Shown: positions 10,681 through 60,135 of the stretch, piece by piece
Position numbering within the stretch: position 1 is the stretch's first letter
Layout: each line of letters starts with the position of its first letter
Assembly (NCBI GenBank): GCA_949152475.1
Contig: OX424556.1
Span: 53,650,451 to 53,714,450 of the forward strand
Reading direction: 5' to 3'
Length of the DNA: 64,000 nucleotides
Source of the DNA: Terebella lapidaria
Lineage: Eukaryota; Annelida; Polychaeta; Terebellida; Terebellidae
Position numbers and translations under genes: made by a program
The notes under the pieces: model-generated
The model's input: the letters and a program-made list of their open reading frames with translations, nothing else
What the model was told of the DNA's origin: nothing
Database searches by the model: none

Positions 10681-11692
10681 CATCTAAAAATTTGAAACAT
10701 ATATTGTCCGGTAACCTATCTTTGGCCCTTGGCATAATTTTCAAGTTGTTTCAGGTCGTTTTGAAATTTTTGGTGATCATTTGCTGTTTTGATGGGCCTG
10801 TAAAGCAGAAAGTCGTCGGCGAAAAATCGAACCTCTGACAAAACACAATCTGGAAGGTCATTTATGTTGCACAGAAAAAGAGTAGGACCTAGCACTGTGC
10901 CATGTGGTACTTCTGATTCGACCGGTACCGAGTTCGATTGTTCACCTTCAACCACTACTTTCATATTTCGTTGAGTTAGGAACGAGGTGAGCCATTTGTG
11001 TACTGGGCCAGAAATACCATAATTGTGGAGTTTATGGAGGAGTTTCGTATGTGGGACGGTATCAAATGCTTTCGAAAAATCTAATATAGCGATGTCACAT
11101 TGATTAATTATGTTCGTAAGAGTTTAGTAGGTCATGGAGGGTTACGATGAGCTGGGTTTCACATGAGTAACCGGAGCGAAAACCGTGGTTCCTGTTTGTG
11201 AGAATGTTGTATTTTTCAAAGTGTTGTAGTAGTTGTTTACATATTATATGTTCGAGTAGTTTACAGGGAACAGATGTTAATGACACTGGCCTGTACTTTT
11301 CCGCCGAGTGTCTGTGCCCTTTTCTGTATACTCGTGCTATGTTTGCATTTAGCCAATCGAGTGGTAGGTTTCCAGTGTCCAGAGAAGTTTGAAATATAAT
11401 GGTTAACCCTGGGCCGAGTTATTCTGCAAATGTTTTAAGGACTATATTGGGAATACCATCAGGACCGCATGCTTTTGTGGGGTTTATATTATTAAGGAGT
11501 TTAGTGACACCATCGGTGGGAACATGAACAGGTTTTAATGGGGACGTTTTTACTCGTTTCATTTCAGCATAACTTGAGGATCATCAGAATATTCGGCATA
11601 TATCATTTCCTATATGTCCACAATTGATTCCTAAACTGTAAAATCGATAATAAGCGAGATATCAGCCATTTCGTGCATTGACCTTGAAAATG

Positions 11693-12238: not shown

Positions 12239-13090
12239 CTATACGTGTGAAGCTGGTTTTCGTTGTAGAGGCGCAGTCTGAGCTGTAGAGGCGACAGGAC
12301 AGGTCTGACAAACAAGCGGCCCGCAACACCGAGGACATCTTCTCTCCTCTGTATTCGGACGGGCTTCCAGTGAGGCTCTTTGGTCGAACAACAGAGTCTC
12401 AGACTGTGACAACGTGGATTCCGTTTCCCGCACCTGCCGGTAATGGTCAAGCTTGGCTTCCGCATTCGTCAGCTTATCTTGCAGACGTTGTTTTTCCTTC
12501 TCCAGCTTATTCCTATCCATTTCGAGTTTTTCTATTTTCTGCATTTCTTCAGAAATCCGTCTCTCTAGTGTCTCAATGTCAACTCCGGCCTCCAATCCGA
12601 CGTGCTCTTTCATACGGTTGATAGCTCCTTCGGTGCTACTGATCTCCCTCTCCAACTTTGCCAGTTGCGCGGCCTTTTTTCGAAGCTCGTTTTGCAGGTG
12701 TTCGGCTTCGGCTCTGAATCTGACGGCGGCGTCGTCCGCTATTTCCGAATCTGCCGCGGTGGTGCACTGAACGGGCGGTCGTTGTTCAAGCTCCCTCAAT
12801 CTGTCCATATACTTAAGGATCTGTTCATTCTGCTTACCCATCCACGTCAATAGCTCCGTGTTTCTTTCCAACGAGGCTCTGCGCTCCTCTTCCAGTTCTT
12901 CAATGTGAGAAGCACTGTCAATCTCGGTTGCTTCCTTTTCATCTTTCAGTATTCCGTATCTGTGCTCCAGTTCGGTGAAATCAGATTTTATCACTAAAAA
13001 CGGCTCCAAATTTTTAACCAAAACGTCCAATTCCTCAGCGGCAACGCGCTCACTTAGGAGACGTTTTAAATAAGAAGAAATGTTCGACAT
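12239..13090 (-). CDS. Coiled-coil protein with C-terminal zinc ribbon, copy B (subtype 1)
   Basis: This is an open frame of 283 codons. The start is placed at MSNISSYLKRLL because every family member begins there and TGTAAAATG is conserved at the start of B, D and G; a further in-frame ATG at 13132 would add 14 unconserved residues. Residues 1-40 are a conserved helix-rich head with a VAAEELD motif. About 40-235 is heptad-rich, charged coiled coil (for example LEKEKQRLQDKLTNAEAKL), broken by a conserved RPPVQCTTAADSEIADDAAV linker near 105-125. The tail has CPRCCGPLVCQTC, a CxxC-x5-CxxC pattern that could bind zinc. No signal peptide, membrane segment or intron is seen. I do not recognise the family; an oligomeric intracellular scaffold is only a guess. 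A young Ty3/gypsy LTR starts 71 bp upstream of its ATG, in divergent orientation. With H it is one of two intact copies here. Confidence 0.8.
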   Translation of the reverse strand: MSNISSYLKRLLSERVAAEELDVLVKNLEPFLVIKSDFTELEHRYGILKDEKEATEIDSASHIEELEEERRASLERNTELLTWMGKQNEQILKYMDRLRELEQRPPVQCTTAADSEIADDAAVRFRAEAEHLQNELRKKAAQLAKLEREISSTEGAINRMKEHVGLEAGVDIETLERRISEEMQKIEKLEMDRNKLEKEKQRLQDKLTNAEAKLDHYRQVRETESTLSQSETLLFDQRASLEARPNTEERRCPRCCGPLVCQTCPVASTAQTAPLQRKPASHV

Positions 13091-13239
13091 TTTACAGGCA
13101 CCGGTATTTAGTTTGTCAGTCCGTATTATCACCCACTACCGGTATTCCGTTCTACTACATATGTAACAAAACCATGCAACTGCCGCGCTGAAACGTTCGT
13201 TAGGAACGGTCACGTGATCTACAAAGTCCACTTGCGAAG

Positions 13240-13470
13240 ACACCGTTCGCGGAAGAACCGTTCGCGGAAGCACGATTGCGGAAGCATCATCAGCGGAAGC
13301 ATCGTTCGCGGAAGAACCGTTCGCGGAAGCACGATTGCGGAAGCATCGTCAGCGGAAGCATCAGTCGCGGAAGCACCGTTCGCGGAAGAGGAGCCTTCGC
13401 GGAAGAACCGTTCGCGGACGCAGTCTTCACCACGTGGAGAAGAGTGCGGAAGATACGTTCGCGGACGAAG
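13240..13470 (+). repeat. 15-bp TTCGCGGAA array in the LTR promoter
   Basis: Tandem units of about 15 bp of the form CCGTTCGCGGAAGAA fill the U3 region upstream of TATA. Exact TTCGCGGAA cores lie near 13246, 13261, 13305, 13320, 13379 and 13396, with variants (ATTGCGGAA, TCAGCGGAA, TTCGCGGAC) in between. All are in one orientation. An identical array is in the 3' LTR. The core has the TTCnnnGAA dyad format. Its place upstream of TATA suggests enhancer or operator use. Confidence 0.85.
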
Positions 13471-13492
13471 ATGCGCGCGCAGCCACCCTGGC

Positions 13493-13499
13493 TATATAA
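13493..13499 (+). promoter_or_regulatory. LTR TATA box
   Basis: TATATAA in the context GGCTATATAAGGG, 23 bp after the last TTCGCGGA-type core ends. An initiator-like GCACTG lies about 32 bp downstream (13525-13530). The identical 3' LTR copy is at 23556-23562. Confidence 0.75.
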
Positions 13500-14060
13500 G
13501 GGAGAGCGGACGGCCGCTCTGAGAGCACTGCAACAGCGACATCGACCGTGGGGAGATCGTCACCGCCACAGCCAAGGGACTCGACGAACTCCGTGCGGAC
13601 GACTCCTTCTTCAGGGCCTTAGAGTCAACCGGGATTTAGACCGACTACCTGGAGAAACCATTCGACTAAGCGGGACGGGAAACTTCAACGGGAAGGGACA
13701 GAGAGACGCCGCCGGCTAAGAACTCTTTTTAGTTGTGCCCTCGTGCACTATTTATTTTTGAAATGTGATCATACAGTGCTCCATGTCTGAACTTCATATT
13801 TGTACGTCACGTGGGTGACCAGCCATACAATTGTAAGTTGATTTGATGTATATAAATCTTCAATTTATTTACATCTGAGTTGCTTCTTGCCTAAGTGAAG
13901 CCGGTGAGCTACGGAGTGATGATACACCAGCGTTGGGGGACACCAATTTAGTGACGGCTCTCGAATCACAACGAGCGGGAGTTACATAAAGTCTATACGA
14001 TCAGAGAAACCAGGTTTTTTGGGCCACACCGAAAACAAGTCATTACCAAACGTCACAACT

Positions 14061-14080
14061 TGGTGCACGTGACCAGGATC
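14061..14080 (+). promoter_or_regulatory. tRNA primer-binding site
   Basis: Three bases after the LTR the sequence TGGTGCACGTGACCAGG begins with the TGG expected opposite a tRNA CCA end. It resembles the complement of a tRNA-His 3' end (TGGTGCCGTGAC) with one extra base; tRNA-Gly is another candidate. The position is well supported, the tRNA identity is not. Confidence 0.6.
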
Positions 14081-14121
14081 CCCGAGGGTCTACTGCCAGG
14101 GAACGAACCTCAGCATCACTC

Positions 14122-16680
14122 ATGTCCGGCGAAAACGACGAAACTGCCCCAGGGAAGACAGGAGGTGAAGAGGAAGACTCTTCGCGGACGGCCTCACTTG
14201 CGGACGAGGAAGACAGCGGTTCGCGGAAGCCGACCTTTGCGGAAGAGGGAGACGACCGTTCGCGGAAGACGTTCGCGGAAGACGACCGTTCGCGGAAGAC
14301 GTTCGCGGACGACAACCGTTCGCGGAAGACGACCTTGGCGGAAGAGGCCGACGACCGTTCGCGGAAGACAACGTTCGCGGAAGACGACCGTTCGCGGAAG
14401 AGCAGCTTCACAGCCAGGGGTAGACGGGACGTTTCGACGAGTGAGGAGCAACCAGGGAGGTCGAGACCTTCCATGGGCCAGTCGACTAGTCAACAGAGAC
14501 CCCGGAGCCAGACACCCGACAACCGTTTTCTTTTCAGACACGACTCTGGGTGGCAGCACGATCGAGACAGGGAGAGGTCAACCTACCTTGAGAGCGTTAG
14601 GAGGGGCCCCGAGTTCCGACGAGTGCTGGGACCGGAGTACGTCAATCTGGACGGGGAGGACGGCGAAATCTGGGCGAGGAGGGATCGGCTACAGCTACCG
14701 GAGCAGAGTCCAAGTGTGGCACCTCCAGAGAATGCAGCATTGAGACGGCTTTGGGACCAGTCCCAGCAGCAGTCTGGTGCAACAGAGCAGCAGTCTGGTG
14801 CAACAGGGCAGCGGTCGGGTGTGACGAGTCGACAAACGGGAGTGACTGGAGGACGGGTTACTTGGGCTCCGACCCAAGAGAGCAGCTCGAGAGGGAGAGG
14901 ACTTTTCGCGGAAGAGAACATTCGCGGACGAGAGGCATTCTTCGGCGACAGGGACGCTTGCAGCCGGGGATCCTTCGTGGATGAACGGGCTCGTGGGCGA
15001 GGGGGAGTCTTTGGTGACGAGGACGCTTGTGACCGGGGAGGGCCCTTCGCGGACGACCACGTTCGCGGACGAGGACGACTCACGGAAGAGAGTGTTCGCG
15101 GAAGAGAGGAGTCTTCACCCAGACGGCGGCTCGACGAAAGGAGTGATCCAGGCGACCAATCTTCCTTTCCAGTTTTTCAGAATAGACGGGGAAGACCATT
15201 CGCGGATGAGCCGGTTCGCGGAAGACTCGCGGAAGATGGCGTTCGCGGACGTGCATCTTTTGTGGAGGGACGTCTCCGAGACATCTTGGCGGACGGGCCC
15301 GTTCGCGGAGGACTCGCGGAAGACGGCGTTCGCGGAAGAGGCCTGTTCGCGGAAGAACTTCTTCGGGAGCTGTTGGCGGAAGAGTCCGTTCGCGGAAGGT
15401 TCGCGGAAGACAGTGTTCGCGGAAGGTTCGCGGAAGACAGCGTTCGCGGAAGAGAGAGGTCTTCACCCAGTCGACAACCGAGACAGCCAGCCTCCTGGAG
15501 AAATCCAGCTTCTATTTCAGTCACCCAGGGAGGCCGGAGACAGCACCCTTTCTCATCATCGGGCGATGAGGGGCCTTCATCTGATGGAGGGACCGACAGC
15601 AGCCATGGTTACCCAGGACGGGGGAGGAGACCACCGAGGCGGGGACCGCCGCTGCACCGACGAAGCCCTAGGCCGAGACGGAGGCAGGAGGACTCGTCGT
15701 CCGAGGACAGCACAGCCTGGAATCAGAACGGCAGAAGGAACCGGAAGATGCTGACCCCTGACAAGTTCGATGGGACTTCCATAGAGTGGCCGGTGTACCG
15801 GGCCCACTTTGACGTCATCGCAGAGGTCAACGGATGGAGCAAGCGGGAACAGGGCGTCTACTTAGCCGGGAGCTTGACAGGAGAGGCGCGACGAATGCTG
15901 ACCAGCCTGAGTCCTGCAGACCGGAGGGACATCGACGTTCTGACCGACAAGCTGACCCTACGATTCGACCCTGACTGTCAGGAGGAGTCCTACAAGGCGA
16001 CCTTGGGACAGAGAACCCGCAGGAAGGCAGAGACACCCCAGCAGTACGGCTATGAGTTGCAGCGACTGGCCGGCCGTGGTTATCCGGATCTGAACTCCGC
16101 AGCTCAGGAGGCTATCGCCTTAGACCACTTCTGGAAGGGCCATCCAGATGGGGACATGAAGGTGATGGCGCTCATGAGGAAGATGAAGACCATGGAGGAG
16201 GCCATAGCGTTCGTGACCCAGTACGAATGTGTCAAACCCAAGCCTGGGAAGCCGGTGATGTCCATAGAGTCGGAGGACTCCGAGCCAGCTCTAGGACGGG
16301 TCCTACAGCTGTTGAAGAACCAGCAGGGAGGCGAGATTACCACCAGTGGGCAGCAGAGCAACCAGCCGAACGTAGCGGGTCTACCCAGACTTCCCTACTT
16401 CAAGGGGCTCTTTGAGAGCCAAGACAGGAAGCTGGATCGACTAATCGAGCTGTGTGAGCAGGTGCTATCCATCAAGCCGAGGGCCGCCACTGCTGAGAAC
16501 AAGGGACCAAGCGCTAGGCCGGGACCAGATGACTGTTGGTACTGTGGGAAGCCGGGTCATCGGAAGTACCAGTGTCCAGATCGGCCGCCACCTCGGACCA
16601 AGGAGGAGCGCTTGAGTCGACTAATCGAGGAGATTGGTGAGCGGAACAGTTTGACAGACGAGGTGTCGGAAAACCAGTAG
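14122..16680 (+). CDS. gag: Gag polyprotein of the young Ty3/gypsy element
   Basis: 852 codons, unusually long for Ty3/gypsy Gag. Residues about 20-100 and 260-445 are low-complexity repeats (RSRKTTFAEED and FAEDSVRGR types), encoded by roughly 26 in-frame TTCGCGGA cores of the same repeat that fills the LTR promoter. About 110-260 is Gln/Ser/Arg-rich linker and 445-540 is basic and Pro/Arg-rich. The retrotransposon Gag core spans about 544-710 (KFDGTSIEWPVYRAHFDV start, then GSLTGEARRML). A single zinc knuckle, CWYCGKPGHRKYQC (C805-C808-H813-C818), follows. It forms the particle shell and packages RNA. Because the array lacks stops, several long overlapping frames on both strands are artefacts. 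The start is the first ATG of the frame after the primer site. Confidence 0.9.
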   Translation: MSGENDETAPGKTGGEEEDSSRTASLADEEDSGSRKPTFAEEGDDRSRKTFAEDDRSRKTFADDNRSRKTTLAEEADDRSRKTTFAEDDRSRKSSFTARGRRDVSTSEEQPGRSRPSMGQSTSQQRPRSQTPDNRFLFRHDSGWQHDRDRERSTYLESVRRGPEFRRVLGPEYVNLDGEDGEIWARRDRLQLPEQSPSVAPPENAALRRLWDQSQQQSGATEQQSGATGQRSGVTSRQTGVTGGRVTWAPTQESSSRGRGLFAEENIRGREAFFGDRDACSRGSFVDERARGRGGVFGDEDACDRGGPFADDHVRGRGRLTEESVRGREESSPRRRLDERSDPGDQSSFPVFQNRRGRPFADEPVRGRLAEDGVRGRASFVEGRLRDILADGPVRGGLAEDGVRGRGLFAEELLRELLAEESVRGRFAEDSVRGRFAEDSVRGRERSSPSRQPRQPASWRNPASISVTQGGRRQHPFSSSGDEGPSSDGGTDSSHGYPGRGRRPPRRGPPLHRRSPRPRRRQEDSSSEDSTAWNQNGRRNRKMLTPDKFDGTSIEWPVYRAHFDVIAEVNGWSKREQGVYLAGSLTGEARRMLTSLSPADRRDIDVLTDKLTLRFDPDCQEESYKATLGQRTRRKAETPQQYGYELQRLAGRGYPDLNSAAQEAIALDHFWKGHPDGDMKVMALMRKMKTMEEAIAFVTQYECVKPKPGKPVMSIESEDSEPALGRVLQLLKNQQGGEITTSGQQSNQPNVAGLPRLPYFKGLFESQDRKLDRLIELCEQVLSIKPRAATAENKGPSARPGPDDCWYCGKPGHRKYQCPDRPPPRTKEERLSRLIEEIGERNSLTDEVSENQ

Positions 16681-16703
16681 GGCTCATACCAGCCCCCAAC
16701 CGT

Positions 16704-19700
16704 ATGGGCCATTGGCAGGTGTGTGCACGGCTTCACAGGCGAGAAGCTCGACGAAGACGTGAAGAACACATTGCCAGGGGGGAATTTTTAGTTTCACAGA
16801 TTTTTAATAGGTTTTTCCGGTGTGCATCCGAAGTAACTGGATGGGCGCAGGAGGAGCTCGAGGATCGAATTCTCGACTATTTGGAGGGCAAGCCTGTCAA
16901 CACAGACGGGAGTGCCAATGTACAGCAAACCGATGGAGCCGTGGAGCGTCTAATGCCCCGCGGAGACGTCAAGGAAATGCAGACCGATGGAGCCGTGGAG
17001 CGTCTAATGACCCGCGGAGACGTCGACGAAATGCAGACCGATGGAGCCGTGGAGCGTCTGGGGACCCACGGAGACATCAACGAGGTTTCTGCTAGCAGCA
17101 AGGAGAACCAACAGGTTACAACCTTGAGGCTGGAGGCTGCGAAACAGCAGGGACCCCCCTATGCAACTGAACCACAAGCGGCCGTGAAAGAGGAGACGGA
17201 GGGCCGGTGGAGCGGAATGACCAAGGGGCCAGCGCAGCAGCTATTGCTGGTGGACGACTCATTACTTATCCGGAGCGGCGGTTCCGAGGGGAGTGATTCC
17301 CTTAAGACTGACAGAGAGGACCAGGGTGGTGCATCACTGTGGGTGGACGACTCAGTACTTATCCAGGGCGGCGTCCCTGAGGAGAGTGGCAGCTCTCTTA
17401 AGATTGACAGAAATGGCCAGGTGGTGTCGCTGTCAGCCGGTGCCCGAGGCACATTGGCGTGGTATGCGGCGTGCCACGTTATGGGGAAGGCGACTCGTAT
17501 GTTGGTGGACACGGGTGCCTCTTCCACCGTTCTGGACGAGTGTCTCTTCGACCAAATGGATGACGAACATAAAGCAATGATAAGGCAGACGAGAATAAGG
17601 TTACGGGCAGCAACCGGAGACTACTTACAGGTTCAAGGAGAGATGACAGTTCAACTTCTACTGGGCACACGACTCGTGTCGGCAGATGTACTGGTAGCCA
17701 AACTAGGGATCCCGGGAGTGTTGGGGCTTGATGTACTTCAACAGATTGGGGGACAGCTGGATCTGCGTAAGGGCGAGTGGCAGGTGGGCGACACTACCGT
17801 AGTGATGAGCTCGGGCCACGAGGACGCCGTCTACACACTGGTGACGGAGGAGACGGTCGTCTTGCCACCCTTTTCAGAGATGATGGTGGACCTCAAGCTG
17901 ACAGGAAGTGAGGGAGGAGTTCCGAAGGCCGGCCTCGTGCAGTCCGCAAGAGAGCCGTTGGAGGACGACCCCCTCGTAGTGGGACGAGCCCTGGTACGAC
18001 CCCGAGGACGCCTGGTACCGGTGGTACTTCTGAACGCCGGCGCTGGAGCTTGCACTGTGCTGATGGGGACCATCCTAGCCGAGCTTCACGGAATAGAGGC
18101 CGTGATCGACCTGGGATTTCGTCCCGATGGAGGGAAAACAACCCAGAATGAACCTAAAAGGGAACAGTGGTACCGGGAGGAGAGCGGGAGGGAGCATGAG
18201 CCCCTTACACCAAACTCCACCAAGTGGCGGAACCGGACGCCTGAGCAGCCCGAAACCAGAGTGCACGCCATGCACGCAGAATCGTCGACGAAGACACCAG
18301 AGTGCCCGGAGCATTTAGAACCGCTCCTGGAGGGAATGCATCCGAACTTGACGGAAAAGGAGGTGGAGGTCGTCAGCGATCTCCTTCGACGCCACCAGCA
18401 GGTCTTTATGGGACCAGATGGGAGGTTGGGCCGGACGTCCCTGGCGAAACACGTCATCGACACGGGAGATCACCCCCCGATCAAGCAGCCTCTGAGGAGA
18501 GCCCCGTACTACCAACAAGAGCTGATCGAGGACGAGGTCGACAAGATGTTGAAAGCTGACGTTGTGGAGCCAAGTGACAGTCCATGGTCGTCTCCCATCG
18601 TGCTAGTGAAAAAGAAGGATGGTGCACTGAGATTTTGCGTCGACTACCGCCGTCTAAATGATGTCACCCGGAAGGATGCGTACCCCCTGCCTCGAGTCGA
18701 CGAGAGTTTTGATACCTTGTCAGGAGGACGATATTTTTCGACGCTAGACTTGGCTAGTGGTTACTGGCAGGTCGAGATGGACGACAGGGACAAGGAGAAG
18801 ACGGCGTTCACTACCCGTAGTGGACTCTATCAATTTAAAGTGATGCCGTTTGGATTGGCGACGGCCCCGGCTACTTTTGAACGTCTAATGGAGCTGGCAC
18901 TGAGGGGACTCCAATGGAAGCGTTGTCTAATTTATTTGGACGATGTCGTCTGTCTTGGAAAGACTTTCCAAGAAGCCGTGGACAACCTCGAGGACGTGTT
19001 CCGGAGACTGCAGGCTGCCGGGCTGAAGCTGAAACCCGCCAAGTGTGAGCTGTTTCGACAACAGGTCAACTTCCTGGGCCATGTCGTGTCCGACCGAGGC
19101 ATCCAGTGCGACCCTGCCAAGGTCGAAGCTGTAACAAAAATGGTTCCTCCGACCACCTTGACAGAACTAAGGAGCTTCCTTGGGTTCGTGGGGTACTACC
19201 GCAGATTCATCCCTGACTTTGCCACCCGAGCGGGACCCCTCAACCACCTGTTAAAGAAGGAAGTCAACTACCATTGGAGCGAGGCTCATCAGCAGGCGTT
19301 CGAGGCGCTGCGTCAACCCCTGACCGAGCACCCCCTGCTGGTGTACCCTGACATGGACCAAGAATTTATTTTAGATACTGATGCTAGCGGCTACGGAGTG
19401 GGAGGCGTCTTATCCCAAGTGCAGGACGGACGAGAGCGGGTGATCGCCTATGCTTCCAGAACCCTGAGGGACACCCAGCGGAATTACTGCACCACCAAGC
19501 GGGAGCTCCTGGCCGTCGTCAGTATGATACACCATTTCAGACATTTCTTGTGGGGGAGAGCGTTCTTACTACGAACCGACCACGCCTCTCTCAAGTGGCT
19601 ACTGAACTTTCGGGATGCGGAAGGAATGATCGCTAGATGGGCAGCTCGCATCGCCAGCTACGCCTTCAGGTGTGAGGTCCGACCGGGAGTACAACACGGG

Positions 19701-21776
19701 AATGCAGACGGGATGTCCGGATGCCGACAGTGCCGGAGACCGGATTGTCCCGCCCCTCGCCACACCACAAGACCCGAAGGAGAAGAGGAGGCCTGTCCGA
19801 CTCAGGAGGAGTGTCCCCTACCCCTGGAGGACCTCTCTGACGAGGATCTGCTTCCACCGATCAGCGGAGAAGGATGGAGCCCCGGAGGACCTCAAGTTAA
19901 CATCTTGCGGGAGGTCCCTGTGGAGCCCTGGACGGAGGACTACTATTGCGGAGATGGAGTCGGGATATTCCAGATCTGGGAGGTGCGCTGCCGGGAGGAC
20001 CCGAGGACGACTACCCAGCCGGCCGAGGAATGCCTGCCTGACCGGAGCCCCCCACAGACGGAGGAAGGAGCCAGGAGCGTCTGCAGAACCCTGCATCAGC
20101 TCCGCCCCTCTGCCTGGGTTTGGTTTCTCCTGATGATGCTCCTCGCACTGCATGGTTTGGGACCGGAGGTTGTGGCCGGAGCAGCGATCGGCGCGACGGC
20201 CGACGTGTGGATGCGCTGCCGAGAGGAGCCCTTCCTGGACCCATGCCCCAACCCTGTGCTCCGAGATCCAGACAAACAAATGCTAGCTGTCACGCGGGCT
20301 ATGGCTACGAGAGGACGCCGGAATCCGATGGAGGGAGCCCCGGAGGCCCAGGTCCTGAATGGTTATTCCCAGGAGGACCTAGTGACCCTTCAACGAGCCG
20401 ACCCTGAAGTTGGAGGCATCCTCGGGTGGAAGAATATTTTCACTGAGAGACCTGCATGGCCCGAAGTCAGAACAAAAAGTCAGCAAATGAAGACTCTGTG
20501 GCAACAGTGGGACCAGCTGGAGCTACGTGATGGGCTTCTGTACCGGCGGTACCAAGCGGCTTGCCAGAACGCACCAATCCATCAACTGGTCGTTCCACAG
20601 GTCCTGAGACGCGCCGTCATGAAGGAGGTCCACACCGGCAAGCTGATGAGCCACCAGGGAATCACCAAAACAGTCCACCGACTAAAAGCGAGAATGTACT
20701 GGCCGGGTATGACGAAGGACGTGGAGCGTTGGTGCCGGGAGTGCCTGAAGTGTAGTGGGAGAAAGCCGCGACCGGGGCCCAAGTACCACCCCATGGGAAA
20801 TCTACCGGTAGGCGATCGGCTAGAAAGGGTGGCCATGGACATTTTGGAGCCTGGAACGATCACCAATTCTGGGAACCGGTATATACTGGTCGTGGGTGAT
20901 TATTTCACCAAGTGGACTGAGGCCTACGCTCTACCCAACCATGAGGCTCAGACGGTGGCGGACGTCTTTGTGACTGAGTTCGTGTGCCGCCTGGGAATGC
21001 CAGCCAAGATACACACCGACCAGGGACGAGAGTTCGAGAGTAAGCTTTTCCTTGAGATGATCAAGATCCTAGGAGGGGAGAAGACTCGGACGACCCCTTA
21101 TCACGCCAAATCAGACGGGATGGTCGAGCGATTCAACCGGACCCTGCTGAACCTTCTGGCCGTGGTCGTGGACGAGAACCATGACGACTGGGACGACCAT
21201 CTGCCCTACGTGATGGCGACTTATAGAACATCAGTACACGAAAGCACCGGGTGTACACCATTTCGAATGATGATGGGACGGGAGGCAACCACCCCATTGG
21301 ACCTGAGGTACCGGACGAAACCGGACGATTTGGGAGGACCAGTCCCCGAGTGTGCGTCCGAATACGTCGAATGGGTGAAGGAAGCCACCATACAAGCTCA
21401 CGAGACTGCCCGAGAGTGCCTGAAGACGGCTACGGTGCGACAAAAGCGCCATCATGACGTAAAATCAGCCGCTCGACATTTTCCGGTGGGCACCTGGGTG
21501 ATGTATTGGTACCCTCCAAAGGCTAGACCAAAACTAGGACTAGGGTGGACGGGACCTTATCTCGTTGTGAAGTCTCATCTCGGATGGATGGTGTCCATAC
21601 AAGATCGACCCGGTGGCAAGATTAAAGATGTCCACATTGACAATATAAAAAGGTGCTGGTTCACCCCTGAAACCGACGCCTGGATACCCAATCCGGACGA
21701 TGTGACCCCAGTCCGGACCCCCAGTGATGACGAGGGACGAGTGGAAAACAGCGGGAATGCAGTCCAAACGATGTAA
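16704..21776 (+). CDS. pol: Pol polyprotein (PR-RT-RNase H-IN) of the young Ty3/gypsy element
   Basis: 1,690 codons, in the -1 frame relative to gag and open upstream of the listed ATG, consistent with the -1 frameshift expression known in many Ty3/gypsy elements. Domains: a 90-190 leader with three direct repeats (TDGAVERL); aspartic protease with DTGASS at 269-274; reverse transcriptase with YLDDVV at 744-749; RNase H with DTDAS from 891; integrase HHCC zinc finger from about 1310 (HTGKLMSHQGITKTVHRL, then CRECLKC); DDE core D1379, D1439, E1475 (D-x59-D-x35-E); and a GPY/F-type module near 1617. All catalytic motifs look normal. Between RNase H and integrase (about 1020-1200) is an atypical acidic/Pro-rich spacer with a hydrophobic stretch, WFLLMMLLALHGL, near 1137. 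No chromodomain is evident. Confidence 0.93.
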   Translation: MGHWQVCARLHRREARRRREEHIARGEFLVSQIFNRFFRCASEVTGWAQEELEDRILDYLEGKPVNTDGSANVQQTDGAVERLMPRGDVKEMQTDGAVERLMTRGDVDEMQTDGAVERLGTHGDINEVSASSKENQQVTTLRLEAAKQQGPPYATEPQAAVKEETEGRWSGMTKGPAQQLLLVDDSLLIRSGGSEGSDSLKTDREDQGGASLWVDDSVLIQGGVPEESGSSLKIDRNGQVVSLSAGARGTLAWYAACHVMGKATRMLVDTGASSTVLDECLFDQMDDEHKAMIRQTRIRLRAATGDYLQVQGEMTVQLLLGTRLVSADVLVAKLGIPGVLGLDVLQQIGGQLDLRKGEWQVGDTTVVMSSGHEDAVYTLVTEETVVLPPFSEMMVDLKLTGSEGGVPKAGLVQSAREPLEDDPLVVGRALVRPRGRLVPVVLLNAGAGACTVLMGTILAELHGIEAVIDLGFRPDGGKTTQNEPKREQWYREESGREHEPLTPNSTKWRNRTPEQPETRVHAMHAESSTKTPECPEHLEPLLEGMHPNLTEKEVEVVSDLLRRHQQVFMGPDGRLGRTSLAKHVIDTGDHPPIKQPLRRAPYYQQELIEDEVDKMLKADVVEPSDSPWSSPIVLVKKKDGALRFCVDYRRLNDVTRKDAYPLPRVDESFDTLSGGRYFSTLDLASGYWQVEMDDRDKEKTAFTTRSGLYQFKVMPFGLATAPATFERLMELALRGLQWKRCLIYLDDVVCLGKTFQEAVDNLEDVFRRLQAAGLKLKPAKCELFRQQVNFLGHVVSDRGIQCDPAKVEAVTKMVPPTTLTELRSFLGFVGYYRRFIPDFATRAGPLNHLLKKEVNYHWSEAHQQAFEALRQPLTEHPLLVYPDMDQEFILDTDASGYGVGGVLSQVQDGRERVIAYASRTLRDTQRNYCTTKRELLAVVSMIHHFRHFLWGRAFLLRTDHASLKWLLNFRDAEGMIARWAARIASYAFRCEVRPGVQHGNADGMSGCRQCRRPDCPAPRHTTRPEGEEEACPTQEECPLPLEDLSDEDLLPPISGEGWSPGGPQVNILREVPVEPWTEDYYCGDGVGIFQIWEVRCREDPRTTTQPAEECLPDRSPPQTEEGARSVCRTLHQLRPSAWVWFLLMMLLALHGLGPEVVAGAAIGATADVWMRCREEPFLDPCPNPVLRDPDKQMLAVTRAMATRGRRNPMEGAPEAQVLNGYSQEDLVTLQRADPEVGGILGWKNIFTERPAWPEVRTKSQQMKTLWQQWDQLELRDGLLYRRYQAACQNAPIHQLVVPQVLRRAVMKEVHTGKLMSHQGITKTVHRLKARMYWPGMTKDVERWCRECLKCSGRKPRPGPKYHPMGNLPVGDRLERVAMDILEPGTITNSGNRYILVVGDYFTKWTEAYALPNHEAQTVADVFVTEFVCRLGMPAKIHTDQGREFESKLFLEMIKILGGEKTRTTPYHAKSDGMVERFNRTLLNLLAVVVDENHDDWDDHLPYVMATYRTSVHESTGCTPFRMMMGREATTPLDLRYRTKPDDLGGPVPECASEYVEWVKEATIQAHETARECLKTATVRQKRHHDVKSAARHFPVGTWVMYWYPPKARPKLGLGWTGPYLVVKSHLGWMVSIQDRPGGKIKDVHIDNIKRCWFTPETDAWIPNPDDVTPVRTPSDDEGRVENSGNAVQTM

Positions 21777-21791
21777 ACGATGACGGGAGCG

Positions 21792-21904
21792 TTCGCGGAA
21801 GAACCGTTCGCGGAAGCAGCGTTCGCGGAAGCAGCGTTCGCGGAAGTACCGTTCGCGGAAGCACGTTCGCGGAAGCAGCGTTCGCGGAAGAACCGTTCGC
21901 GGAA
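21792..21904 (+). repeat. Eight-copy TTCGCGGAA array upstream of ORF3
   Basis: Exact TTCGCGGAA cores start at 21792, 21807, 21822, 21837, 21852, 21866, 21881 and 21896, so spacing is 15 bp except once at 14 bp. The array begins 15 bp after the pol stop and ends about 70 bp before a TATA box. It has the same orientation as the LTR array but is more regular. This pairing copies the layout of the LTR promoter. Confidence 0.9.
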
Positions 21905-21973
21905 GCAAGCGAAAAACGTTATTTCGTTCCACGACAATGCTTTTTCCCCCAGATCCCTGGTCCGCGCCTTTTC

Positions 21974-22010
21974 TATATAAGCAGGCCGGCCTACGGTTCC
22001 GTCATCACTT
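21974..22010 (+). promoter_or_regulatory. Internal ORF3 promoter: TATA box and initiator
   Basis: TATATAA at 21974-21980 (context TTCTATATAAGC, like the LTR's GGCTATATAAGG) is followed 31 bp downstream by TCACTT at 22005-22010, close to the animal initiator TCAKTY. That is the canonical TATA-to-initiator distance. The predicted 5' leader before the ORF3 ATG (22016) is only about 10 nt. Separate transcription of ORF3 is inferred and fits its independence from the pol frame. Confidence 0.65.
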
Positions 22011-22015
22011 CAACC

Positions 22016-23104
22016 ATGAACACACCAACTCTGCAGATCATTGAGATACCCGCATTTGCAGACGAAGATTTCGGGGACGTTCCAGATTTCGACTTGGCTG
22101 ACTTTCTGCCCCTTGAAGTCGACAAGATGAGCGACCCACCTACCAAGCCTGACCGAAAGCGGGAGCGCTCGAGGAGCCGGGAGCGTCGTGAGGAGCCCCG
22201 AGGAGGTCGACGGTCCCCTGCCCGGAAGTTGTCCACCGAGAGAGGGCGACGCTGGTGCAGCCCCTGCCGGATCCACGTGACGGCATCCAACTTTAGCCGA
22301 CACGTGGCGACCAAACACACGCAGAAGGAGGGGCGGCACCTCTGCAAGATGTGCAGCCAGCGATTCGCCCGCCGAGCTGACAGAGACCGGCATGAGACGT
22401 CGCATGCCAGCGGCAACACCCTCAAGCCAGGACGGAGGAGGACGACGACCGACACGCCCGTGTCCGACCCCCGAGATGGTCCGACTACTGTGTCTGCCCC
22501 TGAGCTGAAGACTGTCAGCTTTGCGGCCAGCGGGACGACCAGCTCCACGCCGTCAAGCCCCCGGGAGGACGCCCCCAGGTCAGAGGACGCCCCAGACCCC
22601 GAGGACGACCCCCCGAATAGCGAAGAGGAACCGGAGTCTCAGCAGGAGCGGAGAGAGGCGGAATCCCCGGAGGCCCCCACCCCCGAGGACGACGGACCCC
22701 CCGTTCCCAGAGACTCGGCCCCTACCTACAAGCCCCTAGACCTGAGTTGGTACCTCAAGCCCGTTCCGGAGGAGGAGGACCAACTGCGACCGTATGTGGA
22801 GGGCCTGGGCAGAGCGGTCACTGCCGGAGAGAAGGCCCTGGAGGACCTGGCATCCACGATAGCCATGGGACGACGCCACCTCACCCAAGCGGAGGCTCGG
22901 CTCCAAGCCAAGGAGGAGCAGAGACAGCTCGAGGCCGAGGTGCTGCAGCTGCGAGGGGAGGCCTCTCAACGAGAGAAGAGCCACCGGAAGGAGCTGCGAG
23001 CCCACGTCCGAGAGACCAAGCTGCTCCGGGAACAGCTCCGAGCATATACAGACACTCGAGACAGGCTGGCGGAGACGTCCGAAAGCGAGGTGGATCGCCA
23101 GTGA
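22016..23104 (+). CDS. ORF3: two-finger C2H2 zinc-finger/coiled-coil protein of the retrotransposon
   Basis: 362 codons in the env position, but with no signal peptide, membrane span or glycoprotein features. Residues 1-40 are acidic (FADEDFGDVPDFDLADF), like an activation domain. Residues 44-71 are Arg/Ser-rich and basic, a likely nuclear localisation signal. Finger 1 is C81-x2-C84-x11-H96-x4-H101. Finger 2 is a classical C110-x2-C113-x12-H126-x3-H130 (CKMCSQRFARRADRDRHETS). About 150-240 is Pro/Glu/Asp-rich and disordered. About 265-345 is a strong coiled coil (for example AEVLQLRGEASQREKSHRKE), suggesting dimerisation. It has its own promoter-like sequence and TTCGCGGAA array. I infer a sequence-specific regulator of the element, perhaps binding those repeats; RNA binding or particle assembly are alternatives. 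I know of no standard Ty3/gypsy gene of this architecture. Confidence 0.8.
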   Translation: MNTPTLQIIEIPAFADEDFGDVPDFDLADFLPLEVDKMSDPPTKPDRKRERSRSRERREEPRGGRRSPARKLSTERGRRWCSPCRIHVTASNFSRHVATKHTQKEGRHLCKMCSQRFARRADRDRHETSHASGNTLKPGRRRTTTDTPVSDPRDGPTTVSAPELKTVSFAASGTTSSTPSSPREDAPRSEDAPDPEDDPPNSEEEPESQQERREAESPEAPTPEDDGPPVPRDSAPTYKPLDLSWYLKPVPEEEDQLRPYVEGLGRAVTAGEKALEDLASTIAMGRRHLTQAEARLQAKEEQRQLEAEVLQLRGEASQREKSHRKELRAHVRETKLLREQLRAYTDTRDRLAETSESEVDRQ

Positions 23105-23187
23105 AGTGGAGGGAGAGAGCCCTGTAAACATCAGACAGGCAGGAAAAGACGAAGAAGGAGGAAGAAGAGAAAAGAAGAGAGAGAAAG

Positions 23188-23207
23188 GATCAACGGGGAC
23201 GTTGATC
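23188..23207 (+). other. Perfect hairpin before the polypurine tract
   Basis: GATCAACG and CGTTGATC form an 8-bp perfect stem with a GGGA loop, three bases before the polypurine tract. A long purine-rich run (about 23143-23188) precedes it. It may help define the plus-strand primer or end ORF3 transcripts; function is inference. Confidence 0.5.
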
Positions 23208-23210
23208 TCC

Positions 23211-23223
23211 AGAAAGGGTGGAG
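23211..23223 (+). promoter_or_regulatory. Polypurine tract
   Basis: AGAAAGGGTGGAG, purine with one T, ends one base before the 3' LTR. This is the expected position of the plus-strand primer. Confidence 0.7.
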
Positions 23224-23224
23224 T

Positions 23225-24120
23225 TGTAACAAAACCATGCAACTGCCGCGCTGAAACGTTCGTTAGGAACGGTCACGTGATCTACAAAGTCCACTTGCGA
23301 AGACACCGTTCGCGGAAGAACCGTTCGCGGAAGCACGATTGCGGAAGCATCATCAGCGGAAGCATCGTTCGCGGAAGAACCGTTCGCGGAAGCACGATTG
23401 CGGAAGCATCGTCAGCGGAAGCATCAGTCGCGGAAGCACCGTTCGCGGAAGAGGAGCCTTCGCGGAAGAACCGTTCGCGGACGCAGTCTTCACCACGTGG
23501 AGAAGAGTGCGGAAGATACGTTCGCGGACGAAGATGCGCGCGCAGCCACCCTGGCTATATAAGGGAGAGCGGACGGCCGCTCTGAGAGCACTGCAACAGC
23601 GACATCGACCGTGGGGAGATCGTCACCGCCACAGCCAAGGGACTCGACGAACTCCGTGCGGACGACTCCTTCTTCAGGGCCTTAGAGTCAACCGGGATTT
23701 AGACCGACTACCTGGAGAAACCATTCGACTAAGCGGGACGGGAAACTTCAACGGGAAGGGACAGAGAGACGCCGCCGGCTAAGAACTCTTTTTAGTTGTG
23801 CCCTCGTGCACTATTTATTTTTGAAATGTGATCATACAGTGCTCCATGTCTGAACTTCATATTTGTACGTCACGTGGGTGACCAGCCATACAATTGTAAG
23901 TTGATTTGATGTATATAAATCTTCAATTTATTTACATCTGAGTTGCTTCTTGCCTAAGTGAAGCCGGTGAGCTACGGAGTGATGATACACCAGCGTTGGG
24001 GGACACCAATTTAGTGACGGCTCTCGAATCACAACGAGCGGGAGTTACATAAAGTCTATACGATCAGAGAAACCAGGTTTTTTGGGCCACACCGAAAACA
24101 AGTCATTACCAAACGTCACA
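23225..24120 (+). repeat. 3' LTR, 896 bp
   Basis: Same length, ends (TGTAAC...GTCACA), repeat array and TATA box as the 5' LTR; I see no base differences between the two. It is followed by CATA, matching the 5' flank. Confidence 0.95.
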
Positions 24121-28228: not shown

Positions 28229-29158
28229 TTACTTGTGTGACGCTGGTTTGCGCGCTGTAGATGCGGGAGCAGAGGGCTGACCATCAAGTGAGGCACCACA
28301 TCGGGGACACTTTCTGTCCTCAGCATTCGGACGCGGGCCTACTGGGGGTCTCTGATCAGGCGGCTTAGCTTCATACCCGCGGGAACGTGACAACGTGGCA
28401 TGCGTGTCACCGACTACCAAACAATGCTCATGTTCATTATTCACAAACATCAGCTTAAATTGGATTTTATCCTTTTCTTCTTCCAGCTGCTTTATTCTAC
28501 GCTTGAGTTCTTCTATTGTCTGTTTTTCTTCTTGCAATTGCTGTCTCAGGTTTTGCATTTCGTTTTTTCCTTGCCTTTCAAGCTCCAGAATCCGTCTCTC
28601 CAGTGTCTGGATGTCATCTTCAGGAGTCAGACCGACTTCCTTTTTCATCCGGTTCACTGCTTGTTTGGTGCGGCTGAACTCTATCTGAAACCGTGCCAGT
28701 TGTTCGTCCTTTTTCTGGAGCTCGGTCCGCAGGTGTTCGGCTTGGGCTTTGAAACTGACGGCTGCGTCGTCCGCTCTTTCCGAGTCTGCTTCGGCGGTGC
28801 ACTGAACGGGAGGCCGGTCTTCAAGCTCGTTCACTCTGCGTATATATTTCAAAATCTCCCGATTCTGTTCGCCCAGCAATTGCAGTTGCTCTGTGTTTCT
28901 TCCAATCAGGATTTCAACACGTTCCCTCAATTCTCTGTTGTCCTTCTCTAGTTTGGCACAATATTGCTCGTTCTCTTTCTTCTCACAGCGATCCATTGCT
29001 TTTTTCTAGTTCGGCAATTTAACAATTTTATCACCAGTTCGGCAATTTAAAACCAAACTTTATCACCAAACACGACTTCAGTATCCAACCATATGCAGTT
29101 TTTCAGCTGTAACGCGTTCTCTCGGGAAACGTTTCAAATATGAATAAACATTGGACAT
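28229..29158 (-). pseudogene. Coiled-coil family copy D (subtype 3), head disrupted
   Basis: A 255-codon frame (28996-28229) covers coil, linker (RPPVQCTAEADSERADDAAV) and tail. The family head lies just upstream: ATG at 29158 gives MSNVYSYLKRFPRERVTAEK and then runs into stops in a stretch containing two near copies of GGTGATAAA...TTGCCGAACT. Full-length translation from the usual start is therefore blocked. A shorter protein from the ATG at 28996 is possible. The tail keeps CPRC, but the second CxxC pair is replaced by GQPS, as in copy I. Head and duplication are shared with copy G, so the damage predates their duplication. The 5' flank matches that of G. Confidence 0.75.
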
Positions 29159-39372: not shown

Positions 39373-40113
39373 TCACGATGTAGAGACTCCAGCGCACTTC
39401 AGACAAACAAGTGGGCCGTCACACCGAAAACATTTTAACACCTCCAGATTTAGATGGGGTTCCACAGAGACACTTGGGCCAGGCAAATTGGGTTCCACAG
39501 AGACACTTGCGCCGGGCAGATTGGGTTCTACAGAGACACTCGGGCTGGGCAGCGAAGCATCCGACTGTGACAACGTGAATTTTGTCTCCCGCACAAGCTT
39601 GTACATCTTGAGCTCGTCTTCCACATTCCTCAACTTATTTTGCAGCCGTCGTTCTTCCTTCTTCAGATTATACTTATCTATCTCGAGTTTTTCTATTTTC
39701 TGTCTTTCTTCAGAAATCCGTTTCTCTAGTGTCTCGATGTCATCTTTGGGACTCAGTCCGACGTCCTCCTTCATCCGTTCGATAGCTTCTTCGATGCGAT
39801 TGATCTTCCTCTGCAACATTAATAGTTACTCGGCATTTACCTGAAGCTGGGACCGCAAGTGTTCGGCTTCGGCTTTGAATCTGACGACTGCATCGTCCGC
39901 TATTTCCGAATCTTCCGCGGTGGTGCACTGAACAGGTGGCCGGTCTTCAAGCTTCCTCACCCTGCCTATAAACCAACGGATCGTTTCATTCTGCCTACCC
40001 AACCACATCATTAGCGTCGTATTCATGTCCAACGAGGCTCTGTAAAACTCTCCCAGATCTTCATTTTCATATTTTTGCTCAAGTTCAGTGAAATCAGAAT
40101 AAACGTTTGCCAT
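39373..40113 (-). pseudogene. Coiled-coil family copy E (subtype 1), one nonsense codon and head deletion
   Basis: The frame is continuous from ATG 40113 to the stop at 39373 except for one TAA at codon 96 (between VNAE and LLMLQRK). CAA to TAA is the simplest origin. The head jumps from MANVYS straight to DFTELEQKY, an in-frame deletion of about 30 residues relative to H. The distal part keeps the coil and CFRCDGPLVCLKC (CxxC-x5-CxxC). Before the tail there are three tandem copies of an 11-residue unit (SVSVEPNLPGP), an in-frame 33-bp expansion seen only here. 5' flanking DNA to about 40790 is duplicated upstream of H. Confidence 0.8.
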
Positions 40114-44712: not shown

Positions 44713-44984
44713 CTGCAATCTCTGATTGTCTCGTTCTGTCTAAAATACTCAACAGATTTTCACCAGGATTATCTTGCTTTGAGACTTCATTTGGTCAGGG
44801 GCTGTTCCTGATTGGCCTTGGATGGTTTTAAGTTTGTCGAATATGTTGATCAGATTATGCCTCCTTCAGCACAGAGAAGATATACAGAAACTGTGCTTGA
44901 TGTGGGTGGTAGGGCTAGATTGGCTCATTTTCGTTCTGAAGACAATTATCCATGCATGATACATTTGTATAATTATTTGTGCGA

Positions 44985-46075
44985 CGCTGGCTTGTGAGCT
45001 GTAGGAGCCGCAGCACAAGATTCACAAACAAGAGGGCTGCTAAAACTTTTCTCCTCCACAGTCGGAAGAGGGCCTACATGGGGTCTCTGGCCACACAGCA
45101 AAACTATAGAACCGCGGGCTCGTGACAACATGGACTTCGTGTCATGGACTCCCACATAGTGATCAAGGTCGGCATTCACAAACTCCAGTTCAACTCGCAT
45201 CCTATCCTTTCCCTCTTTCAGCTGCTTTATACTGCGCTTATGTTCTTCTATTGTTTGTCTTTTCTGATGTAATTTCTGTCTCAGGTTCTGCATTTCGTCT
45301 TTGGTTTGCCTTCCAATCTACAGAATTCGTCTTTCCAGGGTCCCGATGTCATCTCCCGGAGTCAACCCGACTTCCGGTTTCATGCGGTCTATTGCACGTT
45401 TGGTACTGTTGATCTCCCTCTTCAACTATTCCAGTCGCTCGTCTGTTTCCTGAAGCTCGGTCCGCAGGTGTTTGGCTTCGGCCCTGTTTCTGACATCTTG
45501 ATCGTCCACTCCAAAGAGCCTAAAATACCAAAAGCGGGCACTCAGCCGTATTTCTGAAGTGACCACTTCTTCGGTGGCGATTCAACATATAACTCACAAG
45601 ATATTGCTTGCCAGAGCCGTCGTGAGCAGTGAGTGAGCAGGTCGCTCCTCTGGCGATGTGAATTTTTTGTTTCATTTGTCACCATGTGGTCGAATGGAAG
45701 TGCCGCCTCTTGGTATTTTAGGCTCTTTGGTCCGCTCAACCAGTGTCCGAGTTTGCTTCGATAGTGCACTGAAAGGTGGACGGTGTTGAAGCTCGTCTCA
45801 CTGATGTACTTCAATATCTCCTGATTCTGTTCATCCAGCAGTCGCAATTGCTCGTAGTTTCTTTTCATCAGTTTTGCAACACACGTTCCACGGAGGCTCT
45901 GTTCTCCTTCTCATGCTTAGAAGCGTCTTGTTTTTTTGTTTTCTCATTTCTCAGGGATTGATAGCTTTGTTTGAGTTCCGTGAAATCAGATTTCATCACG
46001 AAGCACGTCTCCAGGCTTCTAAGCAACGTGTCCAGTTCCTCAACTGGAAGGCGTTCTCTCAAGATATTTCCTAAA
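44985..46075 (-). pseudogene. Coiled-coil family copy F (subtype 2), interrupted by a MITE
   Basis: Minus-strand pieces: RERLPVEELDTLLRSLETC (46062-45868), MKRNYEQLRLLDEQNQEILK (45868-45780), and the distal coil QKRQTIEEHKRSIKQLKEGK to the tail (45293-44973). The ATG is lost and several stops and frame changes are present. A 220-bp MITE sits in the linker region. The tail keeps only one CxxC (CESC). It aligns best with copy C, including flanks, so C and F are duplicates. Confidence 0.8.
45511..45730. mobile_element. MITE, 220 bp, inside pseudogene F
   Basis: Ends CCAAAGAGCCTAAAATACCA and its near-complement span 30 bp. Flanks TCCACT and TCCGCT (45505-45510 and 45731-45736) correspond to the single CGTCCGCT in paralogs B, C and D and look like a 6-bp duplication with one later change. 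Confidence 0.85.
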
Positions 46076-55420: not shown

Positions 55421-56308
55421 TTACTTGGGTGCTGTTGGTTTACACGATGCGTTGGAGTTAGCGCAAAAGAAACAACGAATTTGGCGCTTACATCGATAAC
55501 ATTTTCTCACCTCCAGACCCAGATTGGGTCCCACTGAGAAACTCGGGCCAGGCAGCAGAGCCTCAGACTGTGACACTGTGGATTTCGTCTCTTTCATCCG
55601 CCGGTAGTGGTCAAGTTCAGCGTCCGCATCCCTCAACATAAGTCGCAGAACATTTATCTTTTTTATCAGGGTTTTCTTCTTTTCCAGAAGTTCATGTATT
55701 TTCTGCCTCTCTTCATGTAATTGCTGTCTCAGGTTTTGTATGCCCTCTTGGTTTTGTCTCTCGAGGTCCAGAATTCGTGTCTCCAGTTTCCCAATGTCAT
55801 CTTTGGAACTCAGTCCGACTTCGTGTTTGATCCGGTTGATTGTCTGGTTGGTGTTGCCGATCTCCTTCTCTAACTGCGCGAGTTGCTTGTCCTTCTTCTG
55901 GAGCTCGGTCCACAGGTGTTTGGCTTCAGCCCTGAATCTGACGGCTGCGTCGTCCGGCATTTCCGGATCTGCCACGGTGGTGCACTGAACGGGTGGCCTT
56001 TCTTCAAGCTCCCTAAATTTGTCCATATACTTTATAATCTGTTCGTTCTGCTTGCCCATCCATGTCAGTTGCTCTGTATTTTTTTCCAGCGAGGCCTTGA
56101 GCTTCTTTTCCAGTTCTTCAATGAGAGCAGCGTTTTTCTTGTCAGTCGCTTCCTTAGCGTTTTTCAGTGTTTCATATTTTCGTTTGAGTTCAGTAAAATC
56201 AGATTTCACCACTAAACACGGCTCCAAGTATACAGCCAAAGCATCCAGTTCATCATCTGGAACGCGCCCTCTCAGAAGACGTTTCAAATAGGAATAAACG
56301 TTTGCCAT
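55421..56308 (-). CDS. Coiled-coil protein with C-terminal zinc ribbon, copy H (subtype 1)
   Basis: An intact 295-codon frame and the best reference for the family. Residues 1-42 are the conserved head (MANVYSYLKRLL, then VPDDELDALAVYLEPCLVVK). About 42-105 is the first coil (ELEKKLKASLEKNTEQLTWM), followed by the RPPVQCTTVADPEMPDDAAV linker (105-125). About 125-235 is the second coil. The tail is CYRCKRQIRCFFC (CxxC-x5-CxxC), possibly zinc-binding. It has no signal peptide or membrane segment and no intron. The start ATG sits in ATAAAATGG with A at -3. Downstream is the family's conserved 3' segment (TTTTCGTCAGAGATGCTTAT). Function is not recognised. The 5' flank is duplicated upstream of E. 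Confidence 0.82.
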   Translation of the reverse strand: MANVYSYLKRLLRGRVPDDELDALAVYLEPCLVVKSDFTELKRKYETLKNAKEATDKKNAALIEELEKKLKASLEKNTEQLTWMGKQNEQIIKYMDKFRELEERPPVQCTTVADPEMPDDAAVRFRAEAKHLWTELQKKDKQLAQLEKEIGNTNQTINRIKHEVGLSSKDDIGKLETRILDLERQNQEGIQNLRQQLHEERQKIHELLEKKKTLIKKINVLRLMLRDADAELDHYRRMKETKSTVSQSEALLPGPSFSVGPNLGLEVRKCYRCKRQIRCFFCANSNASCKPTAPK

Positions 56309-59883: not shown

Positions 59884-60135
59884 TTGAACCCACAAATGTG
59901 AAAACGCCCACAAATGTGAAAACCCACAAATGTGAAAACAAATTTTGTAAATCACCCACAAATGTAAAAAAAATCAACCACAAATGTGAAAACGTTTTTT
60001 GTCAACTACCCACAAATGTGAAAATCTTCACCCACAAATGTGAAAAAAACTTCACCCACAAATGTGAAAAAAAAAATCAACCACAAATGTGAAAACGATT
60101 TTTGTCAATTGCCCACAAATGTGAAAATCTGACAC
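59884..60135. mobile_element. TGTTGAACC element end with CCCACAAATGTGAAAA array
   Basis: The TGTTGAACC terminus is followed by a dozen or so units of the form CCCACAAATGTGAAAA. The terminus and AAATGTGAAA core match the 47827-50255 element. The other end was not found before the window edge. Confidence 0.65.

Follow-up and report, generated by a model that had tools for sequence, protein, structure and literature searches.

The window analysed here, a stretch of 64,000 nucleotides from the polychaete Terebella lapidaria to whose numbering all coordinates refer, contains a complete and recent Ty3/gypsy insertion at positions 13162-24120. The LTRs end in TG...CA and the target duplication CATA adjoins the element on either side. 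The original prediction described a whole Ty3/gypsy element with a 362-codon gene (hereafter ORF3) in the position of env, and the LTRs, gag, pol and ORF3 were all confirmed. Much of what follows concerns an 11-base word, TTCGCGGAA, and the words matching GCGGA[A/C]G. The features of the element, in order, are:

13162..14057, + strand: 5′ LTR, with TG...CA ends, the same as the 3′ LTR at 896/896 bases
13246..13466, + strand: U3 array of 14 GCGGA[A/C]G words (6 of them exact TTCGCGGAA), spaced 14-17 bp with one gap of 32, located 5′ of the TATA box
13493..13499, + strand: TATATAA box of the LTR, with an initiator-like CACT about 34 bp downstream
14122..16680, + strand: gag, 852 aa, with one zinc knuckle
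14180..15453, + strand: N-terminal stretch of gag with 31 GCGGA[A/C]G words (18 of them exact TTCGCGGAA), every reading frame being used
16704..21776, + strand: pol, 1690 aa, with protease, reverse transcriptase, RNase H and integrase in the Ty3/gypsy order
21790..21907, + strand: pre-ORF3 array of eight perfect TTCGCGGAA, 14-15 bp apart, beginning directly 3′ of the pol stop
21937..21952, + strand: 3′ splice-acceptor-like site, between the array and the TATA box
21974..22010, + strand: putative internal promoter, formed by TATATAA (21974-21980) and an initiator-like TCACTT (22005-22010)
22016..23104, + strand: ORF3, 362 codons from ATG to stop, intact, 3′ of pol; residues 1-37 acidic, 38-80 basic, two C2H2 fingers within 81-131, acidic linker 181-255, helix 251-361
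23225..24120, + strand: 3′ LTR, with the target duplication CATA adjoining

The zinc knuckle of gag, C-x2-C-x4-H-x4-C, lies at residues 805-819, and the zf-CCHC match in Pfam (E 0.0019; 18.6 bits) falls slightly below the cut-off of 20.8. The Pfam matches of pol, at residues 257-347, 635-794, 858-986 and 1297-1467, follow the domain order of Ty3/gypsy elements, and TGGTGCACGTGACC starts 3 bases past the 5′ LTR, at the place of a tRNA primer binding site; the window itself contains 0 tRNA genes. The element has a G+C content of 0.57-0.61 (2-kb blocks, 14001 to 24000), as compared with 0.38-0.39 in the flanks. The start region of pol also carries a 54-bp (18-codon) tandem repeat in three copies (16916-17077), which is unrelated to the TTCGCGGAA word.

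Elsewhere in the window, six repeated coding stretches on the − strand (12239-13135, 28229-29005, 39373-39825, 44973-45317, 55421-56323 and 59253-59951) encode long-helix-like proteins, several of which end in a Cys-rich motif (CPRC...); they look like a multi-copy host gene or an unclassified repeat family, and none of the four that were scanned (0/4) gave a Pfam match above cut-off. A reverse transcriptase fragment, also on the − strand, at 10716-11418 (RVT_1, E 1.8e-15 over 10716-11123), is probably a non-LTR element. By the window end, a partial second LTR element lies on the + strand (61284-63059), with a gag-like frame followed, by eye, by protease-like sequence; the zinc knuckle of this frame scored 17.3 bits against a cut-off of 20.8.

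The repetition of the word upstream of ORF3, eight times according to the original prediction, was borne out by count, the exact copies spanning 21792-21904. Over the whole window, exact TTCGCGGAA occurs 38 times, always on the + strand and never outside the element, whereas dinucleotide shuffles of the window (n = 100) gave a mean of 0.49 copies and a maximum of 2. Six copies are found in U3 of each LTR, 18 in gag and eight in the interval between pol and ORF3. Counted as GCGGA[A/C]G, there are 14 words in U3 before the TATA box, eight before ORF3 and 31 in the first 1634 bases of gag; these 53 words, over the promoters and gag, are all on the + strand, with 0 on the opposite strand of the same stretches, and their sixth base is A in 43 and C in 10. 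The rest of gag and ORF3 have no such word, pol has two and the stretch from the TATA box of the LTR to gag has two. When 15 sites in U3 were compared (selected for similarity to the 11-base word, with at most four mismatches; one of them 3′ of the TATA box), GCGGA and the G two bases on were invariant (15/15), the bases G, T, T and C preceding GCGGA were kept in 80, 67, 73 and 60% and the base following it was A in 80%. The core is looser in gag, where the C of GCGGA is present in 72% of 47 sites (at most four mismatches, so defined that part of the set is probably noise).

The copies of the word in gag, 18 exact and 31 as GCGGA[A/C]G, were absent from the original prediction. The exact copies are divided 6/6/6 among the three reading frames, and the same DNA reads FAE, (V)RG(R) or SRK, depending on frame. 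Shuffling of synonymous codons in gag, with the protein held fixed (n = 1,000), gave a mean of 0.7 and a maximum of 5 copies as against the 18 observed, and drawing the codons by the usage of pol and ORF3 gave a mean of 0.2 and a maximum of 3. Since the gag words occur in all frames, on the + strand and far above the synonymous expectation, they are kept or copied as nucleic acid and not as peptide. Three homologues of gag residues 525-852 were found among 4,938 candidates, none of which, by eye, has repeated word-like peptides (P0126 has a single FADE), so that the gag words may be recent or family-specific. They may be extra downstream binding sites, a protection of the transcribed region against silencing, or by-products of copying.

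Both the LTR and ORF3 have an array followed by a TATA box, and the proposal that the two promoters are one and the same module was upheld. Upstream of ORF3, TATATAA and, 31 bp from its start, TCACTT were found as predicted, and the LTR combines its 14 GCGGA[A/C]G words with TATATAA at 13493 and CACT about 34 bp on. The two promoters stay alike 3′ of the TATA box (an alignment score reached by 11 of 2,000 shuffles); the distance from the start of the last core to the box is 32 bp in the LTR and 75 bp before ORF3. TATATAA appeared by chance in the 111 nt before ORF3 in 29 of 20,000 dinucleotide and 81 of 20,000 single-base shuffles. The heptamer occurs 13 times in the window, each LTR having one further copy (13849, 23912), and is thus no proof of a promoter by itself. 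A candidate start at 22007 would leave a leader of 9 nt only. A second ATG of ORF3, in frame at 22127 (codon 38), would if used lose the acidic N-terminus and retain the fingers and could, speculatively, be a simple route to a short form.

Transcription of ORF3 separately from gag-pol, starting near 22005-22007, is on this layout likely rather than proved, because of the strong acceptor-like site at 21952, between the array and the TATA box. Splicing is the chief rival for the expression of ORF3, as this acceptor, ATGCTTTTTCCCCCAG, is among the three best of the element (third of 918 AG sites scored) and as the ORF3s of LTR elements are described as typically expressed from spliced messages (PMC5408684). 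In that case, an env-type mRNA produced by splicing would encode ORF3 as a nuclear regulator, and the TATA box and array upstream would start no transcription there. A donor-like site in U5, CCG/GTGAGC at 13904, ranks second of 517 GT sites, jointly with its LTR twin, both rankings depending on the scoring matrices used. Expression by splicing leaves unexplained, however, why eight perfect words, a TATATAA box and an initiator are so arranged that the likeness to the LTR promoter continues past the TATA box, and we consider this reading unlikely. A further donor-like site is present in U5, at 13833.

The protein encoded by ORF3 was predicted to have an acidic N-terminus, a basic region, two C2H2 fingers and a coiled coil. 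The net charge is −9 over residues 1-37 and +10 over residues 38-80, in agreement with the first two points, and two Cys/His patterns with C2H2 spacing are present, C-x2-C-x11-H-x4-H in finger 1 (where the Cys-to-His gap is 11 residues instead of 12) and C-x2-C-x12-H-x3-H in finger 2, though both miss the curated cut-offs of Pfam (best E 0.011; 16.5 bits against 40). The closest sequence match in the PDB is the two-finger domain of tramtrack (2drp, E 0.028). In an AlphaFold model (mean pLDDT 59), values exceed 90 over most of the helix at residues 251-361; the fingers are modelled with low confidence (block means of about 51-70), and a large part of the remaining protein lies under 50. The coiled coil was upheld in part: the long helix is modelled, but the heptads in it do not reach significance (337 of 5,000 shuffles were equally good), and the coiled coil is therefore no more than likely. 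In its mixture of acidic and bulky residues, the N-terminus, EDFGDVPDFDLADFLPLEV, would resemble classic activation domains. No long hydrophobic segment of the kind found in env was seen by eye in this charged protein, and no envelope family was found among the Pfam hits; similarly, nothing related to Tas of foamy viruses was found among the Pfam or PDB sequence hits up to E 1, and neither DUF1985 nor DUF287, the domains of VANC, was found in the Pfam scan of ORF3.

In a pair of fingers, the 3′ triplet falls to the one nearer the N-terminus. The residues at helix positions −1, 2, 3 and 6 are R, A, D and R in finger 2 (CKMCSQRFARRADRDRHETSH) and T, S, N and R in finger 1 (CSPCRIHVTASNFSRHVATKH). 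In the recognition code as described in one review, each triplet is read from its 5′ to its 3′ base by positions 6, 3 and −1 in turn, with Arg specifying G, Asn specifying A and Asp specifying unmodified C; a finger with Thr at −1 is also described there, in which the Thr is too short for its base (PMC12264921). Finger 2 is thus predicted to read GCG and finger 1 GAn, which, in the order given by the polarity of the pair, make GCGGAn. This predicted target is the invariant core of U3, GCGGA, with the unspecified base n at the sixth position, where the 53 words have A or C. The chance that a given 5-mer falls inside an 11-base word, on either strand, is 1.4%, and that it falls exactly on the invariant core is 0.2%, both of which are rough because the word had been found before the match was seen. 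The two fingers specify only about five bases, and no finger contact accounts for the invariant G of U3 that follows GCGGAn. The suggestion of the original prediction that ORF3 could act on both promoters is in part supported, in that the contact residues predict the core that is invariant in the LTR.

A second intact record of ORF3 is provided by a public contig of 1767 bases (P0004), which encodes ORF3 plus 3 residues, an in-frame change, and is otherwise identical. At E 0.001, one homologue of ORF3 was found among 7,233 candidates. Relatives of pol were examined as the best 120 of 4,643 matches found, the named ones among which include a pseudoscorpion, frogs, a pearl oyster and a scallop. 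Two of these best 120 (P0012 and P0060) have paired C2H2 patterns 3′ of the integrase; 16 of the 120 lack the integrase motif by which the tail was placed, and in these the last 400 residues were scanned. A third protein, P0112, has a single C2H2 pattern that by eye lies within the zinc region of the integrase, and was dropped.

P0012 (2469 aa) has a pol 49% identical to that of the window (alignment A1), and its frame continues beyond pol: a repeat with a period of 7 residues comes first, and then a tail that has two C2H2 fingers and, by eye, a helix-like C-terminus. In a hand-chosen stretch of 111 residues, the repeat has 14 Ala-Glu pairs (5,000 shuffles gave a mean of 2.3 and a maximum of 9), and the Ala-Glu codons, GCN GAR, would be compatible with GCGGAA, a point that is weak on its own. 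The finger regions of P0012 and ORF3 are 30% identical overall (17/57); finger 2 is identical at positions −1, 2, 3 and 6, and finger 1 shares C-x2-C-x11-H-x4-H, N3 and R6 and differs at −1 and 2. An interfinger linker of 8 residues is common to ORF3, P0012 and P0060. The contacts of P0060 (S, E, Q and R at positions −1, 2, 3 and 6 of finger 1; S, H, N and Q in finger 2) are mostly unlike those of ORF3, which would be in line with a joint divergence of word and fingers.

In a tree of 30 pols, 29 of which were hand-picked among the best 120 hits and the other being that of the window, the window's pol forms a clade of seven with P0006, P0008, P0010, P0011, P0012 and P0013 (support 100/95), and P0060 falls outside this clade. 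Repetitive tails were found in six of the 86 pols scanned (of the 120, the rest were without the motif or had fewer than 60 residues), four of them among the six clade relatives and two among the 80 others (chance 1e-4, with a repeat threshold chosen after looking). The tails of P0008, P0010 and P0011 contain short-period peptide repeats where the window has its array. Thus, the clade seems to have a tendency to carry an array directly 3′ of pol, apparently with no constraint on the frame in which it is read. No confirmed relative was found in viral contigs, searched with ORF3, pol and P0012, or in genome contigs, searched by alignment with pol. One viral contig that aligned with pol (L002, 36% identical) was set aside, its six stop-to-stop frames of at least 100 codons being, by eye, without intact pol or fingers; pairs of the word matched one phage-like viral contig and seven bacterial records among the genome contigs, the latter judged by their titles, and both results were taken as chance.

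Taken as a whole, we give somewhat better than even chances to the view that the element encodes in ORF3 a regulator that binds DNA sequence-specifically and most likely activates both the LTR and the promoter of ORF3 itself. The fingers would read GCGGA(n) at the sites of both arrays, in U3 and before ORF3, and also in the gag words, the acidic N-terminus would activate, and the C-terminal helix would probably dimerise the protein and allow neighbouring sites to be bound together. As its array consists of eight perfect copies, the internal promoter would produce ORF3 first, and ORF3 would then boost its own expression and that of the full-length RNA from the LTR, the array of which is more degenerate. 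A circuit of this kind is described for foamy viruses (Spumaretrovirinae), where Tas, a DNA-binding transactivator made from an internal promoter, has sites upstream of both starts; in the present element the equivalent is predicted from sequence. Tas has a higher affinity for its internal sites and the LTR is strictly dependent on Tas (PMC8670036), a preference to be set beside the perfect internal and degenerate LTR arrays seen here. Unlike foamy viruses, however, the element has a Ty3/gypsy pol, no env that we could find, C2H2 fingers, a short repeated word and words in gag.

ORF3 might, rather than being a classical activator, bind the words along the element and strip it of repression or DNA methylation, as VANC does for the VANDAL DNA transposons of Arabidopsis. 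VANC is also a sequence-specific protein encoded by a transposable element with tandem motif arrays in that same element, and the short motifs that it targets, often tandemly repeated, come and go rapidly (PMC5735166). The words cover about 1.3 kb of gag besides both promoters, and their core contains a CpG, Asp being described as a reader of unmodified cytosine (PMC12264921). VANC differs in that it belongs to a DNA transposon, has DUF1985 and DUF287 domains and has a demonstrated anti-silencing activity, and the motif repeats, those of VANC21 included, are in introns and upstream regions (PMC5735166), whereas the majority of the words here are in coding DNA. Moreover, an acidic N-terminus and the proximity of a TATA box suit an activator, and the CpG observed/expected ratio of the flanks, 0.85-1.0, suggests that the host may methylate little, which counts against anti-silencing; we regard this role of ORF3 as improbable.

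A point against ORF3 as a DNA-binding activator is that all 53 words share a strand, a uniformity for which DNA binding by itself gives no reason. The strand would suit an RNA signal, bound in + strand RNA by Gag or by ORF3 for packaging or nuclear export, and the full-length RNA would include the words of gag, of the pre-ORF3 array and of the 3′ U3. An accessory protein can serve RNA export, as is described for Cer1, an LTR retrotransposon of C. elegans, whose nuclear accessory protein CERV is made from a spliced mRNA and is needed for export of the genomic RNA (PMC10309623). Same-strand copies fit template-switch copying of + strand RNA as well as a role in RNA, and would also be produced by tandem duplication. 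The words are, however, immediately upstream of both TATA boxes, and a hairpin as a conserved common feature of the word sites was not supported, the pairing base being C in 22 of 42 TTCGCGG sites, even though two of the four arrays fold better than shuffles (z-scores of −2.2, 0.1, −0.4 and −3.6, against 100 single-base shuffles each). We know of no word array in Cer1, and we consider a signal in RNA to be very unlikely.

Hardly probable at all is the explanation that the words serve a host factor as binding sites, or merely form a minisatellite that slippage has spread, and that ORF3 is unrelated to them: GCGGAAG resembles ETS and other host sites, the tandem spacing of 14-15 bp suggests duplication and Drosophila gypsy, also a Ty3/gypsy element, has in its 5′ untranslated region an insulator array for a C2H2 protein, the host-encoded Su(Hw), but the sixth base is C in 10 of the 53 words, which to our knowledge ETS cores do not allow, the finger contacts match the word core, the gag copies are scattered over three frames and form no simple tandem array, and the clade relative P0012 combines fingers and array.

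The proposed regulator of the LTR and internal promoters would join several arrangements already known. LTR retrotransposons of bdelloid rotifers are described as having captured family-specific, non-envelope ORF3s in the env position, which encode GDSL esterases, DEDDy exonucleases, and coiled-coil or transmembrane proteins, unlike the ORF3 described here; 'zinc' occurs 0 times in the main text of that paper (PMC5408684). Non-envelope ORF3s (PMC5408684) and accessory nuclear proteins (PMC10309623) of LTR elements are thus known, as are the self-encoded regulators of foamy viruses and VANDALs. The author of the original prediction knew of no Ty3/gypsy element with this arrangement, and in the open-licence literature, among the matches listed and at the level of titles and abstract openings, we found none described as encoding its own zinc-finger regulator together with arrays of a word for it; the novelty is nevertheless qualified by P0012 and P0060, which also have fingers 3′ of pol. 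More tentatively, and with rather less than even confidence, we propose a clade of metavirids whose zinc-finger regulators co-evolve with their own word, in which the density of bound sites at unmodified CpG would decide between expression and silencing, as a foamy- or VANC-like circuit of independent origin. On this view, the effect of site density would be the reason why the word, besides its place at both promoters, came to overwrite gag in all three frames.

Self-encoded, sequence-specific regulators are known from complex retroviruses and from some DNA transposons. If the circuit proposed here is true, a Ty3/gypsy case would mean that the logic of feedback through two promoters is not special to viruses. 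The retention of words in coding DNA, in every frame, would show that selection or copying acts on the nucleic acid regardless of the protein. With the protein and its site arrays within one element, and both apparently varying between relatives, such elements may hold a readable record of the co-evolution of the two.
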